Source: a virus
DNA: 20,981 nt
Direction: 5' to 3' (one strand)
IMG/VR virus record: IMGVR_UViG_3300017749_000172
Location: 1 to 20,981 of that record
This document shows positions 676 to 14,001 of the stretch, piece by piece (the stretch's first letter is position 1; the number at the start of each line of letters is the position of its first letter). A model generated the notes under the pieces. That model did no database searches and was not told the origin of the DNA. It was given only the letters and a program-made list of their open reading frames with translations. The translations under genes were made by a program, and so were the position numbers.

Positions 676-1545
676 ATGCCAACAAATGTATTTTTCAATC
701 ATGCAGTATCGTCTGAACAACACCTGTATGAAGACTTAGTTGTTGAGTCACTTAGAATGTATGGTCACAACATCTACTATCTTCCTAGGGAGATAATAGA
801 AGAAGACACCATTTTAGGAGAAGATGTTGCATCAAAATTTGGAGATGCATATGAGATTGAAGCATATCTAGAAAACGTAGAAGGATTTGAAGGAGAAGGA
901 GACTTATATTCTAAGTTTGGTGTAGAGATAAGAGACCAAGCAACCTTTGTGATTGCACTTAGAACATGGGAAAGATTCGTATCTCTAGATAATAACCTCA
1001 CCTCATCATTCAGACCAAACGAAGGTGATGTAATACACTTCCCTCTCAGTGGTTCTTTATTTGAAATTAAGTTTGTTGAACATGAAGACCCATTCTATCA
1101 AGTCGGTAAGCTCTTTGTATTCAAGTGTAGATGTGAATTATTTGAATATAGAGGAGAAGATTTTGACACTGGTACTAATGCAGACTTGGTTGAAGCAGAA
1201 AGAACATACACTATAAGTGCAACAATGACTGCTGGTTCAGGAGACTCAGGTAATTACACAGAAAATGAAGAACTTAAGATTGGTGATAATGTTATTGGTG
1301 AAGTGTCTACATATAAAAGGTCTAACAGAACTCTTACAATCATACACAACAATACACCACTTGCAGTGGGTGACAGATTAGTAGGTGCAGTGTCAGGTGC
1401 AACTAGACAGATACAAACAATTACCGATGCACTTGATATGCCAAATGACCCGAATGCACAAAATAAAGAATTCGAAGATGCAGCTGATAATTACATAGAC
1501 TTCAGTGAAACAAACCCTTTCGGTGAGATAGGAAATAATAGTTAA
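676..1545 (+). CDS. 14: Neck protein gp14
   Basis: Second neck/head-closure protein and partner of gp13 at the head-tail junction. It is 289 residues against about 256 in T4. The N-terminal part (residues 1-165: FFNHAVSSEQHLYEDLVVESLRM, then an RTWERFVSLDN region) looks like the family core. Note that the first stretch is quoted only as a landmark. Residues about 194-250 form a beta-rich, Gly/Asp-containing segment (KIGDNVIGEV, then PLAVGDRLVGAVSG) that looks like an added module, followed by an acidic Asn-rich tail. The ATG at 676 lies 3 bases after the gp13 stop, with a weak AGG upstream. Identity rests on order plus fold character. A similar module appears in gp15 and gp18 of this window. 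Confidence 0.83.
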   Translation: MPTNVFFNHAVSSEQHLYEDLVVESLRMYGHNIYYLPREIIEEDTILGEDVASKFGDAYEIEAYLENVEGFEGEGDLYSKFGVEIRDQATFVIALRTWERFVSLDNNLTSSFRPNEGDVIHFPLSGSLFEIKFVEHEDPFYQVGKLFVFKCRCELFEYRGEDFDTGTNADLVEAERTYTISATMTAGSGDSGNYTENEELKIGDNVIGEVSTYKRSNRTLTIIHNNTPLAVGDRLVGAVSGATRQIQTITDALDMPNDPNAQNKEFEDAADNYIDFSETNPFGEIGNNS

Positions 1546-1547
1546 TC

Positions 1548-2582
1548 ATGTTTACATATTTTTACAATGAAACAATAAGACGTTCAGTATCTGTGTTTGG
1601 TACCATGTTTAATAATATCACAGTTAAACAGACTAAATCAGATGGGACAGTTGTAAACAGTATTAAAGTTCCTTTGTCGTATGGTCAAAGACAGAAGTTC
1701 TTACAGAGATTAAAAGAAGAACCCGATTTGAATGACAACTTAAGAAGTGCAATATCACTTCCTAGAATGGGATTTGAAGTCAGTGGTTTCACCTACGACC
1801 AAAATAGACAACAAAATAAACTTATCCGTTCCACTAAAACTACTATGGAGTCAGATAATGTTAGTAGAAAGTTTCAATATCAACCCACACCATATGATAT
1901 AAACTTTACACTATCCATCTATGCAAAGAACATGACAGATGGTTTACAAATAGTAGAACAAATACTACCGTATTTTCAACCCGAATATACGGTTGCAATG
2001 AAAATGATTGATGATATGTCAGAAGTAAGAGACGTACCTATCATTTTAACAGGTGTAAATATGGACGACCAATTCGAAGGGTCGTTTGAAGACAAGAGAG
2101 TAATTAACTTTACTCTAGATTTTACAATGAAAACTTATTTCTTTGGCCCAGTATATAAAGGTAAAGTTATTACTAAGGTTAGAGAGAAAACATTTATAAA
2201 TGATGGAAGACATGGTTTCACATCATCAGAACTTACTACATCAGGCATCGTAAAGGACGTTAAGTTTTACGAACCAGCATTTGAAGGAACAGTTGCAAGT
2301 GCAGTGTCTAATAACACTACAGTGACTTTCTCAGCTGCAATAGATAGTAATGTATCTGTAAATGATACTATGGAAGGTTCATCTACTAATCCCGACCCAA
2401 CAGTCTCTTCTATAGCAGGAGACAGACTGTCTGTAGTGGTTTCTAGTAACGTTACTTTGTCCCAAGGTGATAAAGTATACTTCACAGGAAGTGCATCTGC
2501 AGAGGACAATTATGTTATATCAGAAGATGTATCATTCTTTGATGAGGGATATGGTGGTAATGAAGCTTCAACCACAGACTAG
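1548..2582 (+). CDS. 15: Tail sheath stabiliser / tail completion protein gp15
   Basis: In T4, gp15 forms the hexameric ring that caps the contractile sheath and tube and docks the tail to the neck. The protein is 344 residues against 272 in T4. The core (about 1-240) holds the family-like stretch LPRMGFEVSGFTYDQNRQQN and a long beta region (PTPYDINFTLSIYAKNMTDG). Residues about 245-318 are an extra Ser/Thr/Val-rich beta module ending LSQGDKVYFTGS, then an acidic tail with YGGNE. The extension explains the excess length over T4. It starts 3 bases after gp14 with an AGGA upstream, inside the same run of genes. Confidence 0.86.
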   Translation: MFTYFYNETIRRSVSVFGTMFNNITVKQTKSDGTVVNSIKVPLSYGQRQKFLQRLKEEPDLNDNLRSAISLPRMGFEVSGFTYDQNRQQNKLIRSTKTTMESDNVSRKFQYQPTPYDINFTLSIYAKNMTDGLQIVEQILPYFQPEYTVAMKMIDDMSEVRDVPIILTGVNMDDQFEGSFEDKRVINFTLDFTMKTYFFGPVYKGKVITKVREKTFINDGRHGFTSSELTTSGIVKDVKFYEPAFEGTVASAVSNNTTVTFSAAIDSNVSVNDTMEGSSTNPDPTVSSIAGDRLSVVVSSNVTLSQGDKVYFTGSASAEDNYVISEDVSFFDEGYGGNEASTTD

Positions 2583-2591
2583 TGAAAAATT

Positions 2592-3014
2592 ATGACAGAC
2601 AATGTTGACGATAAATTAAATCAAGTATTAGATATAAACACGGACATGAAGAAGGACTTAAAGAAAGTCCCTACAGTCCGTACAGACCTCTCTAAGGAGT
2701 CTTTAGAGACAGACTATAGATATGCAAGGGAAAATCTTTACGACCTTGTAGAGAGGGGACAGGATGCATTAGACGGTATCCTAGACCTATCTAAAGAGAT
2801 GGAGAATCCTCGTGCATATGAAGTGGCAGGACAGATACTTAAAACCACCTCAGAGATTGCAGAAAAACTTTTAGACCTTCAGGTCAAAATGAAAAGTATC
2901 AACAAAGAAGAAATTGCAAAAGAAGGTGATACTCATAATCACTTATACGTTGGGTCAACATCAGACTTACAAAAATATTTGAAGAAAAACAAACATGGTA
3001 AATACGAAGAATGA
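2592..3014 (+). CDS. 16: Small terminase subunit gp16
   Basis: Small terminase, which recognises or regulates DNA for packaging and stimulates the gp17 motor. It is 140 residues against 164 in T4. The central region (about 45-110: YRYARENLYDLVERGQDALD onward) is strongly helical with heptad spacing, as expected for the oligomerising core of T4-type gp16. The C-terminus is Lys-rich (KKNKHGKYEE). The start has no clear Shine-Dalgarno, only AGTGAAAA. The last 20 bases overlap the gp17 start, a typical gp16/gp17 translational coupling. Assignment comes from position, size and helical pattern. Confidence 0.82.
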   Translation: MTDNVDDKLNQVLDINTDMKKDLKKVPTVRTDLSKESLETDYRYARENLYDLVERGQDALDGILDLSKEMENPRAYEVAGQILKTTSEIAEKLLDLQVKMKSINKEEIAKEGDTHNHLYVGSTSDLQKYLKKNKHGKYEE

Positions 3015-4584
3015 AGGTTATCTAGGTAACACTCAAATCAAACGTGCAAACGTTGAGACGAAGTATACCAAAGAAGAACTAGACGAATATCTCAAGTGTC
3101 AACAAGACCCTTGTTATTTTATTGAATCTTATACACAGATTATCTCTCTTGATGAGGGTATGGTTCCTTTTAAGTTACGTGGATATCAAGAAAGTTTAAT
3201 AACACATTATAATGAAGAAAGATTCAGTATAGTACTTGCATCGAGACAAAGTGGTAAGTCTATTACGTCTTGTGCATATTTACTATGGTATCTATTGTTT
3301 ACACCCGAAGTTACAGTAGCTGTTCTTGCAAACAAAGGTGCAATTGCAAGAGAGATGGTTGCAAGGATAACTACTATGTTAGAATCTGTTCCTTTCTTTT
3401 TACAGCCTGGGGTTAAGATTCTAAACAAAGGTAATATAGAATTTGGTAATGATAGTAAACTAGTTGCAGCTGCAACATCATCATCATCAATTCGTGGACT
3501 TTCTATTAATATGTTGTACCTAGATGAGTTTGCATTCGTTGAAAATGCAGAAGAGTTCTACACTGCAACATATCCCGTGGTTACTTCAGGTAGAGATTCT
3601 AAGGTAATTATCACTTCTACTGCAAACGGTGTGGGTAATATGTTCCACAAAATATATGAAAGTGCAACTGTAGGTGAATCAGAATACAAATCGTTTCTGA
3701 TAAACTGGTATGATGTTCCAGGCCGTGATGAAGAATGGAAGAAACAAACTATTGCAAACACTTCTGAGTTACAGTTTCAACAAGAGTATGGTAATAGTTT
3801 CTTAGGAACGGGTAATACACTTATTGCATCTGATACACTGTTAGGATTACGTTCATCAAATCCTATCTGGCACAAGGAAGGTTTTAGTGTTTATAAAAAG
3901 CCAGAGAAGACTCACACCTATATATGTACTGTAGATGTATCGAAAGGGAGAGGTTTTGACTATTCAACCTTTACAATTTTCGATGTATCCACTGAACCAT
4001 TTGAACAGGTTGCAGTATATAGAGACAATATGATATCTCCATTACTGTATCCCGATGTAATTGCAAAATATTGTTCACACTATAACACTGCATTAGTGAT
4101 TATAGAAAACAATGCAGAGGGAGCTGTGGTTGCACAACAGATGCATTATGATTTAGAATATGATAATGTATTCGTTCAGGGTGGTTTAAGATTAGAAGAC
4201 ATCGGGGTAACAATGACCCGAAAGATTAAAAGAATAGGAACTTCTACACTTAAGGAAGTGTTAGAAGAAAATAAATTGAAAATTTGTGATAGGGAGTTGA
4301 TAAAAGAACTCTTAACTTATGTGAATAAAGGAATGTCTTTTGAAGCAGATAGAGGTTATCATGATGATTTAGTTATGAATTGTGTGGTGTTTAGTTGGTT
4401 TTTAACAACTCAATTTTTTGAACACCTAACAAACAATAAAGTTAAAGACTTACTATACGCAGGACAACAACAGGAAATATATGACGATGTCTTACCAGTA
4501 GGAGTTTTTGGAGAACTGGATAAAGAGTCTCACTCATTTGTAGACACGAGTGGAGACCGATGGTATTTACAAGAGAACGACTAA
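2995..4584 (+). CDS. 17: Large terminase subunit gp17 (packaging ATPase/nuclease)
   Basis: Motor that pumps DNA into the prohead through the portal and cuts the concatemer at the ends of headful packaging. It is 529 residues (T4 610). The N-terminal ATPase shows Walker A SRQSGKS at 83-89, Walker B MLYLDEF with D177/E178, and coupling motif STANG at 208-212. The C-terminal RNase H-like nuclease shows the expected acidic residues: D314 in TVDVSKGRGFD, E371 in VIIENNAEG and D457/D458 in YHDDLVMN. The T4 nuclease triad is Asp-Glu-Asp, so the enzyme looks intact. It begins inside the end of gp16. After its stop comes a 59-base gap with a late promoter for gp18. Confidence 0.97.
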   Translation: MVNTKNEGYLGNTQIKRANVETKYTKEELDEYLKCQQDPCYFIESYTQIISLDEGMVPFKLRGYQESLITHYNEERFSIVLASRQSGKSITSCAYLLWYLLFTPEVTVAVLANKGAIAREMVARITTMLESVPFFLQPGVKILNKGNIEFGNDSKLVAAATSSSSIRGLSINMLYLDEFAFVENAEEFYTATYPVVTSGRDSKVIITSTANGVGNMFHKIYESATVGESEYKSFLINWYDVPGRDEEWKKQTIANTSELQFQQEYGNSFLGTGNTLIASDTLLGLRSSNPIWHKEGFSVYKKPEKTHTYICTVDVSKGRGFDYSTFTIFDVSTEPFEQVAVYRDNMISPLLYPDVIAKYCSHYNTALVIIENNAEGAVVAQQMHYDLEYDNVFVQGGLRLEDIGVTMTRKIKRIGTSTLKEVLEENKLKICDRELIKELLTYVNKGMSFEADRGYHDDLVMNCVVFSWFLTTQFFEHLTNNKVKDLLYAGQQQEIYDDVLPVGVFGELDKESHSFVDTSGDRWYLQEND

Positions 4585-4595
4585 GTTCAAAAAAA

Positions 4596-4603
4596 TATAA
4601 ATA
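4596..4603 (+). promoter_or_regulatory. Late promoter octamer before gp18
   Basis: Exact TATAAATA, the T4 late-promoter sequence recognised by gp55-RNA polymerase. It sits in the 59-base gap between gp17 and gp18, 40 bases before the gp18 ATG. The predicted leader carries AGGAG at 4633-4637, 6 bases before the start. Confidence 0.85.
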
Positions 4604-4643
4604 CATTAAAAGAATTGACTAAGGTCGCAAAAAGGAGAAAAAT

Positions 4644-6650
4644 ATGGCATTTCAAGTATCACCAGGCGTACAGGTTAAAGAAGTTGACCTTACAAATGTA
4701 GTACCTGCAGTAGCAGGGACAAGTGGTGCATTTGCTGGAACTTTTTCATGGGGCCCAGTTGATGAGGTTGTAACCGTATCAGGTCAACAAGAGTTAGTAG
4801 AGGTTTTTAATTCACCAGCAAATAATAACGCAGGTGCAGAAGATTTCTTTACTGCAGAGGGTTTCCTAAGATATGGTTCATCATTAAGAGTAGTTAGAGT
4901 TAACTCAACAAACCTTGCAAACGCAAACGCTTCTTCAACCGCTTCACAAATTATTAAGAACGGTTCAGAATACATAGAGTCTTACAGAGACTTGAGTAAT
5001 TCAGGAAGTGTTGGAGCATATGTTGCTAAGTTCGCAGGTGCATTGGGTAATTCATTAAGTGTTCATGTTTGTGCATCTTCAAATGCATGGCAGGAAGCTT
5101 CAGCAGGTAACACAACTGCAGACAACGCTCTAAATGCAACGTCTATCACTGGTGTCACAAACGCATCAACACTATTTGTTGTTGGTGACGTTATCGTGTT
5201 TGACAATCACACTCAAGAGTATAAAGTAACTGCAGTAGCAGGAACTTCACTAACTATTGAAGCACTTAACCAACCAGCTGGAACAGGTTTAACATCTGCA
5301 GTTGATGGTTCAGGTTCAGGTGCAGCAGTAGGTATTACTCGTAAGTGGGAATGGCAATCATATTTTGAAAAAGCACCTGGCACATCTGCACTAGCAGCTG
5401 CTAATGGTTCATCTAACGATGAAATTCATATAGTAATCGTAGACGAAGACGGAGATATATCAGGAACTAAAAATACAGTTCTTGAATCATATGGATTTGT
5501 TTCATTAGCATCAGACGCAAAAAATTTAAACGGAGATTCAAACTTTTACAGAGATGTATTAGAGAGAGACTCACAATGGGTATATGTTACTTCACACTTG
5601 GCAGCAATTGTGTCAAACACAAGTACTATATACACATCTTCATCTTTAGGTTCAAATAACCTAACACCCGACTTACCACAGAAAACAGCATTCGGTGCTG
5701 GTAATGATGGTAACCTTCCTACAGCAGGACAAAAGTACGGTGCATGGCAAGACCATTTCGAAGATGGAGAAACATCAGACATTTCATTCCTTATCGTAGG
5801 TTCAACAAGAACTGATAACGGAAGTGGAACAGAACAAGATACCCTTGCAGATTGGACAACAATCGTTAATCAGGGTATATTGGTTTGTGAAAAACGTAAG
5901 GATTGTCTATTATTAGCATCACCAAGAAGAGCATCAGTTGTTAACGTTTCATCAGAAGCGACCCAATTGTCAAACGTACTAGCAGACGTTAATACTGCAT
6001 CAAGTTCTTCATTCTGTGTCTTTGACTCAGGTTGGTTATATGTCTATGATAAGTACAATGATAGATACGTTTATGTTCCTGCTAACGGACACACAGGTGG
6101 AATTATGGCAAGGTCAGACTTATTGAATGACCCATGGTTCTCACCAGCAGGTTTCAACAGAGGACAATACCTAGGAGTAACCAAACTTGCATTTAATCCT
6201 AAGAAGGCATCAAGAGATGACTTGTATAGAGCAAGAGTTAATCCAGTGGTAACATTCCCTGGCCAAGGAACCGTGTTGTTTGGAGATAAAACAGGACTAA
6301 CACAACCATCAGCGTTCGATAGAATTAACGTACGAAGACTATTCATCGTATTAGAGAAAGCAATTTCAGCAGCAGCTAAAGGTAGACTCTTTGAATTCAA
6401 TGACGGATTCACAAGAGCTCAGTTTAGAAGTGCAATTGAACCTTTCCTAAGAGATGTTAAAAATAGAAAAGGTATTTACGACTTCTCAGTAGTATGTGAT
6501 GAGTCTAACAATACTGATTCGGTGGTAGATAGAAATGAGTTTGTCGCATCTATCTTCATTAAACCAGCTAAATCTATTAATTTCATCACTCTTAACTTCG
6601 TGGCTGCAAGGTCAGGTGTTGAGTTTGAAGAACTTTATGGTGCAATCTAA
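4644..6650 (+). CDS. 18: Tail sheath protein gp18
   Basis: Contractile sheath subunit that polymerises around the gp19 tube and shortens during injection. It is 668 residues (T4 659). The N-terminus FQVSPGVQVKEVDLTN is the classic sheath opening, followed by GTFSWGPVDEV. The C-terminal domain has RDLYRARVNPV-like residues, FGDKTGLTQPSAFDRINVRR and the conserved end SINFITLNFVAARSGVEFEE. Residues about 165-215 contain a Val/Thr-rich beta insert (VVGDVIVFDNHTQEYKVTAV) similar in style to modules in gp14 and gp15. This insert lies in the outward-facing part of the sheath fold by analogy with T4. Its own late promoter and an AGGAG suit the very high expression expected. Confidence 0.95.
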   Translation: MAFQVSPGVQVKEVDLTNVVPAVAGTSGAFAGTFSWGPVDEVVTVSGQQELVEVFNSPANNNAGAEDFFTAEGFLRYGSSLRVVRVNSTNLANANASSTASQIIKNGSEYIESYRDLSNSGSVGAYVAKFAGALGNSLSVHVCASSNAWQEASAGNTTADNALNATSITGVTNASTLFVVGDVIVFDNHTQEYKVTAVAGTSLTIEALNQPAGTGLTSAVDGSGSGAAVGITRKWEWQSYFEKAPGTSALAAANGSSNDEIHIVIVDEDGDISGTKNTVLESYGFVSLASDAKNLNGDSNFYRDVLERDSQWVYVTSHLAAIVSNTSTIYTSSSLGSNNLTPDLPQKTAFGAGNDGNLPTAGQKYGAWQDHFEDGETSDISFLIVGSTRTDNGSGTEQDTLADWTTIVNQGILVCEKRKDCLLLASPRRASVVNVSSEATQLSNVLADVNTASSSSFCVFDSGWLYVYDKYNDRYVYVPANGHTGGIMARSDLLNDPWFSPAGFNRGQYLGVTKLAFNPKKASRDDLYRARVNPVVTFPGQGTVLFGDKTGLTQPSAFDRINVRRLFIVLEKAISAAAKGRLFEFNDGFTRAQFRSAIEPFLRDVKNRKGIYDFSVVCDESNNTDSVVDRNEFVASIFIKPAKSINFITLNFVAARSGVEFEELYGAI

Positions 6651-6660
6651 GGAGTAAACA

Positions 6661-7158
6661 ATGGCAAGTATAGACAGTTTTAAAGCACAATTACTCGGTG
6701 GAGGCCCAAGAGCAAATAGATTTAAGGTTTTCCTACCTAGGTCAGGTGGTAAGATTGAGTTCCTTTGTAAGGCAGCTCAGATACCAGCATCAACTATCCC
6801 AGCATTTGAGGTGAACTTTAGAGGTTCAAAACTTAAAATCGCAGGTGATAGAACATTTGAAGATTGGACTGTTTCAATCATCAATGATGTGGAGTTCTCT
6901 GCAAGAACAGCTCTAGAAGCATGGCAGAGAGATATCCAAGAACTAGATTCAGGAGAAGGTTTAACATCACTAGATTATCTATTAGATAGGGCTTTCGTTG
7001 AACAATTAAACAAAGACGATACTGTGTTGGCAAGATATGAGTTCTTCAACATGTTCCCTAACAATATTGGTGAAATCGCATTAGATTACGATACAACCGA
7101 CCAGTTGGAGACATTTGATGTCACATTCTCATATTCACACTGGCAGAGAGTCGTTTAA
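6661..7158 (+). CDS. 19: Tail tube protein gp19
   Basis: Subunit of the rigid inner tail tube through which DNA passes. It is 165 residues, close to T4's 163. The tube-family pattern is clear: an N-terminal FKVFLP strand, the conserved EFLCKAAQIPASTIPAFEV stretch, a central AWQRDIQEL helix, and a C-terminal strand TFDVTFSYSHWQR. AGGAG at 6650-6654 lies 6 bases before the ATG. Only 10 bases separate it from gp18, so it belongs to the sheath transcript. A hairpin and a new late promoter follow before gp20. Confidence 0.94.
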   Translation: MASIDSFKAQLLGGGPRANRFKVFLPRSGGKIEFLCKAAQIPASTIPAFEVNFRGSKLKIAGDRTFEDWTVSIINDVEFSARTALEAWQRDIQELDSGEGLTSLDYLLDRAFVEQLNKDDTVLARYEFFNMFPNNIGEIALDYDTTDQLETFDVTFSYSHWQRVV

Positions 7159-13262: not shown

Positions 13263-13499
13263 ATGGACAAATACAAAAAACAAGTTACTATTAGTGAAGG
13301 GCCGTTCGAAAGAATTGGATTTCCTAATGGAGTTGAAACCAAAAATGTTTTATCTAGACAGATGAAAACAATCTATGTTCAAGATGGATATTTGTGTGAG
13401 TCTATAGTAGACCGTGAATACAGAGATGGTGACTATCATGACACCACAAAGAACATTAGGGTAATCAAACTAAATGACAATAAACACATCAGTTCTTAA
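13263..13499 (+). CDS. Small protein, function unknown
   Basis: A 78-residue basic/acidic mixed protein not recognised. The sequence alternates short strands and turns (QVTISEGPFERIGFPNGV, MKTIYVQDGYLCESIVDREY, NIRVIKLND), which suggests an all-beta fold. There is no signal peptide or membrane segment. The start is immediately preceded by a TATAAATA box and lacks a ribosome site. Its last 26 bases overlap the next gene, which encodes a tail-tube-fold protein, so coupling with a virion gene is likely. A virion or tail-assembly role is inferred from context only. Confidence 0.68.
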   Translation: MDKYKKQVTISEGPFERIGFPNGVETKNVLSRQMKTIYVQDGYLCESIVDREYRDGDYHDTTKNIRVIKLNDNKHISS

Positions 13500-14001
13500 T
13501 CGAAATAATTTTCGATTTCTAATCGACAGAATTCCAAACGTGGAATACTTTTGTAGGACTGTACAATTACCAGGCTTGTCATTCACAGAAACAATACAAG
13601 CTGCTGGGGTTGGATTAGATGCATATTTTCCAGGCGACAAGTTAGAATTCGAAACACTTCAAGTGCAATTCTTAGTCGATGAGGATATGGCAAACTTCAC
13701 TGAGTTGTATAACTGGATGACATCTATCGTCCCGTTAGACCCAAAGAACTATAACCCAGCAAAATCTGCTGAGACCGATACACTTAATCGTTACACTTCA
13801 AATGAATTCTTAAATGAAATATCGGATGCATCATTAGTTGTAAACACAAACAAAAATGTTGCAAATAAGTTTATCAGATTTCATGACATATTCCCTACAT
13901 CTTTAAGTGGTGTAGAGTTCCAATCAGGTGCAGATGGTGAAGCTGTAGTATGTGATGTAACCTTTAGAATAGGTAGATATACCATAGAAACAAAGTCATA
14001 A
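13474..14001 (+). CDS. Tail-tube-fold structural protein (gp19 paralogue)
   Basis: 175 residues with the same signature as the tube protein earlier in the window: an N-terminal FRFLIDRIPNVEYFCRTVQL strand pair, then LPGLSFTE in the place of gp19's IPASTIPAFE, a helix after a Glu/Leu strand (NFTELYNWMTSIVPLD), and a terminal strand CDVTFRIGRY like TFDVTFSYSH. In T4 the tube fold is shared by gp19 and the baseplate caps gp48 and gp54. This protein is too short for those. In marine T4-like phages I recall tail completion gene 3 near this location, which would be the alternative name. I therefore give no symbol. The start overlaps the preceding gene by 26 bases. Confidence 0.8.
   Translation: MTINTSVLNRNNFRFLIDRIPNVEYFCRTVQLPGLSFTETIQAAGVGLDAYFPGDKLEFETLQVQFLVDEDMANFTELYNWMTSIVPLDPKNYNPAKSAETDTLNRYTSNEFLNEISDASLVVNTNKNVANKFIRFHDIFPTSLSGVEFQSGADGEAVVCDVTFRIGRYTIETKS

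Follow-up and report, generated by a model that had tools for sequence, protein, structure and literature searches.

In phage T4, residues 178-256 of the neck protein gp14 are disordered in the free neck and make extensive contact with residues 203-245 of gp15 in the virion, according to a preprint (PMC12270204). In the T4 tail sheath protein gp18, a structural report describes domain I (residues 98-188) as a six-stranded barrel inserted in domain II, protruding and outside the subunit contacts, which binds the baseplate and the retracted fibres (PMC3004832); domains I and II are both described there as solvent-exposed. Immunoglobulin-like (Ig-like) domains are likewise small beta domains that occur in many kinds of virion protein, as described in two papers (PMC9230969, PMC10276861), and according to the first, a survey of sheath proteins, the extra domains of those proteins are for the most part Ig-like and lie at a distance from the tube. 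Here we consider a window of 20,981 nucleotides (positions 1 to 20,981 of IMG/VR record IMGVR_UViG_3300017749_000172), from the late-gene region of a T4-like marine phage, in which gp14, gp15 and gp18 each carry a small beta-rich segment. We take these three segments, with a probability of roughly 0.7, to be accessory beta-barrel domains of at least two families that occupy permissive sites in neck, terminator and sheath proteins of the T4 type and are probably exposed for reinforcement or docking.

The best named record for the first 7.2 kb of the window is Pelagibacter phage Mosig EXVC030M (Kyanoviridae; blastn, 17% query coverage, 69% identity). All three genes lie on the forward strand: gp14 at 676-1545, gp15 at 1548-2582 and gp18, the tail sheath protein, at 4644-6650. 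The Pfam core of gp14 (T4_neck-protein, residues 6-165) stops at residue 165 and that of gp15 at residue 219, and sheath domains are found in gp18; the segments lie beyond the cores in gp14 and gp15 and mid-protein in gp18. The gp14 core, a T4-type neck protein of head closure (676-1209), leads up to the barrel module M14 (1210-1431, residues 179-252), delimited by its predicted fold and family tests. In gp15, the core of this tail terminator or sheath stabiliser (1548-2204, residues 1-219, from Pfam and comparison) is followed by the module M15 (2280-2501, residues 245-318), recognised by profile comparison, and by a C-terminal tail (2502-2579, residues 319-344). The barrel module M18 occupies residues 150-234 of gp18 (5091-5345), behind a GNxLxV strand that matches YPGELG of T4.

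The preliminary description had located the segments at residues 194-250 of gp14 (window 1255-1425), 245-318 of gp15 (2280-2501) and 165-215 of gp18 (5136-5288), and both these positions and the strings it singled out (IGDNV and VGDRL in gp14, VNDTM and AGDRL in gp15, VGDVI in gp18) are borne out. A regular expression for the whole pattern that it saw in all three proteins, composed only after the segments had been inspected, gave one match in gp15 (0.01 expected from the shuffle mean) and two in gp18 (0.03), the latter being overlapping readings of one place, and matched none of the 18 other window proteins tested, gp14 included. The bare turn, h[GN]DxH, is present also in gp21, gp23, gp46 and gp47.

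Raw pairwise BLASTP among the three segments was not significant (E 0.16 for gp14-gp15 and 0.18 for gp14-gp18; no alignment for gp15-gp18). We compared the modules through profiles, using relatives dereplicated from 197 to 145 gp14, 209 to 153 gp15 and 158 to 131 gp18 sequences. Three further inserts entered these comparisons: M15b, the gp15 insert of a cyanophage-like clade, and M15c and M13, inserts in gp15 and gp13, respectively, of other relatives. As an iterative search over all open reading frames (ORFs), in which the M15 family took in 84 gp18 domains, may have drifted, its result was not relied on, and the search was repeated with one-protein profiles and decoys. A gp15-only profile then matched gp18 inserts at E values of 2e-4, 4e-4 and 6e-3, with 0 of 858 reversed or shuffled decoys below 1. 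The gp18-only profile found 11 of the 153 gp15 sequences below 0.1 (one below 1e-3) and no decoy below 0.1, together with 2 of 145 gp14 sequences below 0.1 (one below 1e-3), at places other than that of M14 in the window phage. With the gp15-derived M15b profile, 7 of 131 gp18 sequences fell below 0.1 (one, that of Mosig, below 1e-3), as did 1 of 858 decoys. The gp14-only profile matched five of 153 gp15 sequences below 1e-3, all in phages other than that of the window, and none of the 131 gp18 sequences at E below 0.1; one decoy reached 0.03.

Profile-profile alignment with hhalign, run in both directions against 49 null slices from core proteins, separates the modules into two groups, judging by the probabilities within and across them. 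M18 aligned with M15 at 76 and 63% (0 of 49 nulls as high) and with M15b at 92 and 93%, and M14 aligned with M15c at 98.7 and 98.8% and with M13 at 95 and 85%. In the M13 comparison one null slice, from gp13, matched strongly and was counted as 1 of 49, because the M13 profile includes gp13 flanks. Across the groups, M14-M18 gave 9 and 5% (0 and 3 of 49 nulls as high) and M14-M15 0.3 and 0.8%; M15c-M18 gave 68 and 12%. A purely chance resemblance is rejected, given that the gp15-gp18 link holds against both decoys and null profiles. At the level of sequence, then, the gp15 and gp18 inserts of the window phage are one family, gp15-gp18 being the only clear link, and the gp14 insert is a second. 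The profile check proposed with the preliminary description thus upholds its common domain for gp15 and gp18 (63-76%), and the gp14 insert falls outside it. Pfam offered no clear family for the modules, single-member matches (E from 0.0006 up) being scattered over unrelated families, and tblastn of the C-terminal 120 residues of gp15 against the phages collection returned nothing. Two candidates for the M14 family were discarded, neither being among the 50 best folds: LSM12, matched by 10 of 101 members (best E 6e-4), and a Tudor-like structure (2ldm, E 0.098).

M14 and M18 are predicted to be self-folding domains. The AlphaFold2 model of M18 is a small barrel (predicted local distance difference test score, pLDDT, 90.7; predicted template modelling score 0.82), and that of M14 a barrel with pLDDT of about 95 and a C-terminal tail of about 60 (mean 82.1). 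For M18, the first-ranked solved structure in Foldseek was the tail tube of Acinetobacter phage Mystique (E 5.7e-3), and an insert in that protein (PDB 9n71, residues 103-186) is both its best sequence-profile match (E 2e-5) and its best fold in VIA-align (Z 10.3, root-mean-square deviation, rmsd, 4.0 over 79 residues), although the host protein there is a tail tube and not a T4-type sheath; a literature search by the code 9n71 found no paper on the insert. Next came the LKA1 tailspike (9.5), the Chi tail tip (8.8, rmsd 1.7 over 73), a K1 capsule lyase and a VP1 capsid chain (both 8.7), the P22 coat (7.5) and T5 pb9 (7.2), with ATP synthase and pyruvate kinase barrels further down (about 5.6-6). 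The I-domain of the P22 coat (8i1v, Z 7.5, rmsd 2.5 over 74; 2m5s, Z 6.9) and the B domain of T5 pb9 (5mf2, Z 7.2) are, like M18, inserted domains, with an apparently similar barrel fold, but they sit in other host proteins, and their Z values, below the safe level of 8 for the tool, may reflect just a common arrangement. Pfam placed the M18 segment of the window against residues 236-305 of the P22 coat at E 0.011, short of the cut-off.

The best solved fold for M14 is a domain of the baseplate protein gp7 of T4 and KP1 (residues about 760-850; 9f4a, Z 7.4; 5hx2, Z 6.2), followed by barrels of the EF-Tu domain 3 type and of T-protein (5.2-6.4), all at low Z and with no sequence match. Predicted viral structures gave M14 412 matches at E up to 10 and 4 at E up to 0.001; the proteins matched include the S-WAM1 tail sheath as well as gp53, neck, wedge and large structural proteins. 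The lists of 50 best solved folds for M14 and M18 have no chain in common, which does not prove that the folds differ. Both modules behave as Ig-like domains do but differ from them in being barrels, and no Ig family is prominent in the match lists: Pfam Ig matches amount to Big_2 in 1 of 77 M18 rows (E 0.058) and Big_7 in 1 of 101 M14 rows (0.062), and Ig folds are not among the 50 best listed for either module, by which Ig is not excluded.

Like M18, domain I of T4 gp18 is a barrel inserted in a sheath protein, but it lies ahead of the YPGELG strand and M18 behind it, so that the two do not share a site and the window phage has another barrel close by instead of domain I. This placement was made by eye because automatic alignments failed to settle it: the YPGELG strand was put in the wrong place when T2 gp18 was aligned with Kyanoviridae proteins, and for the middle region hhalign paired no more than 40 columns, which lie downstream (14%). 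The other side of the strand is occupied in the gp18 of one relative (ORF L160_+_3861), in which an insert with GITVGDVV...GTTVLSIAG stands ahead of the YPG..GN strand, on the T4 domain I side, and the M18 side is short. The preliminary description had attributed the extra length of gp14 and gp15 over T4 to the modules. With T2 as the reference for T4-type lengths, this holds for gp15 (344 against 272 amino acids) and in part for gp14 (289 against 256), in which the module replaces an unlike C-terminal arm of the T4-type protein; gp18 shows no net excess (668 against 659), because T4 carries a different barrel at a nearby site.

The sites themselves are variable. Among seven proteins of each kind, from the window and six named phages, lengths range from 258 to 532 amino acids in gp15, 272 to 470 in gp14 and 516 to 743 in gp18. 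The gp15 of HTVC008M, Melnitz, C48C1, P-SSM2 and S-PM2 measures 258-280 amino acids, compared with 344 here and 532 in Mosig, and the gp18 of C48C1 (516 amino acids) is without the module. The variable part of gp14 is followed in all seven phages by a conserved C-terminal DFSExNPFG-type peptide (window copy NYIDFSETNPFGEI, 1489-1530), likely a contact peptide. Across all loci, the gp18 site is shorter than 60 residues in 19 and at least 100 in 90 of the 109 distinct sequences parsed; the site-length parse left out 41 of 197 gp14, 10 of 209 gp15 and 32 of 158 gp18 ORFs. After dereplication the M14 family is present in 103 of 145 gp14, M18 in 83 of 131 gp18 and M15 in 16 of 153 gp15 sequences. 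By content, the 133 gp15 tails parsed (20 of the 153 remained unparsed) comprise 82 short ones, 24 of M15b/M18 type, 15 of M15, 4 of M14 type, 2 with GxGY repeats and 6 others; the gp15 histogram from the site-length parse, which includes misparsed tails, was not used. On a tree of the 133 gp15 cores the slot label requires 14 changes (shuffled mean 48). M15 forms one side of a branch (support 99), as does M15b (99), and the M14-type insert appears at four separate places, three of them forced by well-supported branches.

Other fillings of these slots were seen in the named relatives. In Mosig gp15 (locus L016, 9368-10966) the slot corresponding to M15 holds a laminin G-like stretch and GxGY-like repeats; the likeness to laminin G, which concerns part of the extra stretch, is weak (E 0.005 to laminin alpha-2) and was not detected by Pfam. 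In the 470-residue gp14 of P-SSM2 (L020, 4643-6055) GxGY-type repeats adjoin the M14 module, and such repeats are present in 31 of 145 dereplicated gp14 sequences. Near the slot in gp15 of P-SSM2 (L020, 6055-6897) and S-PM2 (L021, 12879-13679) we saw by eye a loop of the DKNNDGVIDSADD type, which we take to be EF-hand-like.

The modules also occur in other virion proteins. A near-identical phage is represented by an IMG/VR genome of 135 kb, in which the gp15 core shows 100% identity to the one in the window. There the gp14-derived profile matched four further proteins: one gp53-like (5.2e-8), one gp8-like (1.4e-7), a wedge protein of 1289 amino acids (3.5e-8, besides three stretches that matched more weakly) and one of more than 2000 amino acids (1.7e-5 and 7e-3), the best decoy standing at 0.13; the gp8-like protein is also matched by a gp14 PHROG (E 3e-4). 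At E up to 1, the M15 and M18 profiles found nothing in that genome beyond gp15 and gp18. Among relatives, ORFs at the gp13 position, just upstream of gp14, also carry the M14 family, according to the iterative all-ORF search together with the M14-M13 alignment. The 932-residue sheath protein of S-WAM1 (L274, 9854-12652) combines two M15b-type domains and one M14-type domain: the former (2e-12 and 5.5e-7) lie ahead of the strand that M18 follows in the window phage, and the latter (residues 348-425, 8.3e-6 against 0.016 for the best of 41 decoys) behind it. The module families are thus exchanged among slots and absent from many relatives. The preliminary description, which proposed one small domain inserted in several virion proteins, recorded a real feature and was right about its kind, in that several virion proteins do carry inserted small beta domains, the sites of which are empty or otherwise filled in relatives; the gp14-type domain is spread more widely than it proposed.

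As to function, alignment of the profiles with the T4 proteins ends at residue 186 in gp14 and at residue 243 in gp15, which places M14 in, and M15 at the edge of, the arms that interact at the head-tail joint of T4. By analogy with T4, the modules would be exposed on the virion and tolerated since they leave the core undisturbed, providing exterior reinforcement or docking contacts, and possibly weak surface-binding decoration too, rather than catalytic or core parts. M14 and M15 might reinforce or tune the head-tail joint and M18 might decorate the sheath exterior; contact or reinforcement at the joint for the former pair and exterior decoration for the latter are the likelier roles on the T4 model. 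The surface decoration or subunit clamps suggested in the preliminary description are plausible on the same grounds. A more speculative and rather doubtful extension is that Kyanoviridae share a stock of two barrel families, interchangeable between the slots of neck, sheath, terminator and baseplate, and that in this lineage M14 and M15, placed within or next to the arms of gp14 and gp15, would form a lineage-specific head-tail clamp.

Instead of reinforcing or making contacts, the modules could serve in adhesion, by binding glycans on the host surface. Folds like that of M18 are known from T5 pb9, from tailspikes and from a capsule lyase; a marine roseophage paper credits an oligonucleotide/oligosaccharide-binding (OB)-like insert in the distal tail protein of T5 and of the Rhodobacter capsulatus gene transfer agent (RcGTA) with host adhesion properties (PMC10276861); and the Mosig gp15 slot holds the laminin G-like stretch. 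The neck, however, is far from the host cell and a poor fit for adhesion, and the P22 coat I-domain, apparently M18-like in fold as well, belongs to the inserted domains that another paper credits with stabilising the capsid (PMC7602432). We therefore regard adhesion as possible, if on the unlikely side.

Accessory barrels of two families remain the reading that we prefer, and several points weigh against it. Exposure and role rest on T4. The fold comparison covers M18 and M14, through library matches, and the gp15 module is known from sequence alone; all fold matches of M14 lie below Z 8 and may again reflect a common arrangement. Within the first family, which comprises M18, M15 (by profile) and M15b, hhalign shows no direct match between M15 and M15b (2.4 and 1.6%). 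To the second family belong M14 and, in relatives, the copies in gp13, gp15, gp18, proteins of gp53-like and gp8-like type and other tail proteins. The two groups may be remote kin, as weak likeness crosses between them: M14-M18 (5-9%), and T4 gp18 domain I with M18 (43%) and with M14 (51%), for both of which 0 of 49 nulls were as high. Finally, the loci are best matches and not a census, each of three scans having kept the best 80 of at least 576 confirmed matches.

This cross-likeness, with the common hGD turn and strand pattern of the three segments and the one-directional M15c-M18 alignment, is also what speaks for a single domain family in gp14, gp15 and gp18 of the window phage. We reject that idea as improbable, since gp14 fails the family test by sequence: gp14-only profiles match none of 131 gp18 below E 0.1, M14-M15 stays below 1%, BLASTP among the segments is not significant, and the best solved folds of M14 and M18 differ. 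That each core fold has an elaboration of its own, unrelated to the other two and resembling them just through a common beta turn, accords with insertion at core loops or tails and with the turn motif in other window proteins, and is highly improbable given that M14 and M18 are predicted with high confidence to fold alone, that the module families recur in other proteins and that they are missing from many relatives.

Elsewhere in the window, a second gp19-like tail tube protein (13474-14001; phrog_45, E 6e-32) follows gp23, gp19 itself lying at 6661-7158.

A literature search, by titles and abstract openings and with subscription papers and preprint servers largely outside its coverage, found no report of these inserts. 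Ig-like folds are the best-known case of domain promiscuity in virions, and here two other small barrel families behave alike in marine T4-like phages, at defined slots that include the head-tail joint and a sheath site adjoining that of T4 domain I. The inserts explain the large differences in length of gp14, gp15 and gp18 among relatives, and motif matches among these proteins should be taken, with caution, to reflect the inserts and not kinship of the cores. The modules have clear boundaries for deletion, swap and structural work.

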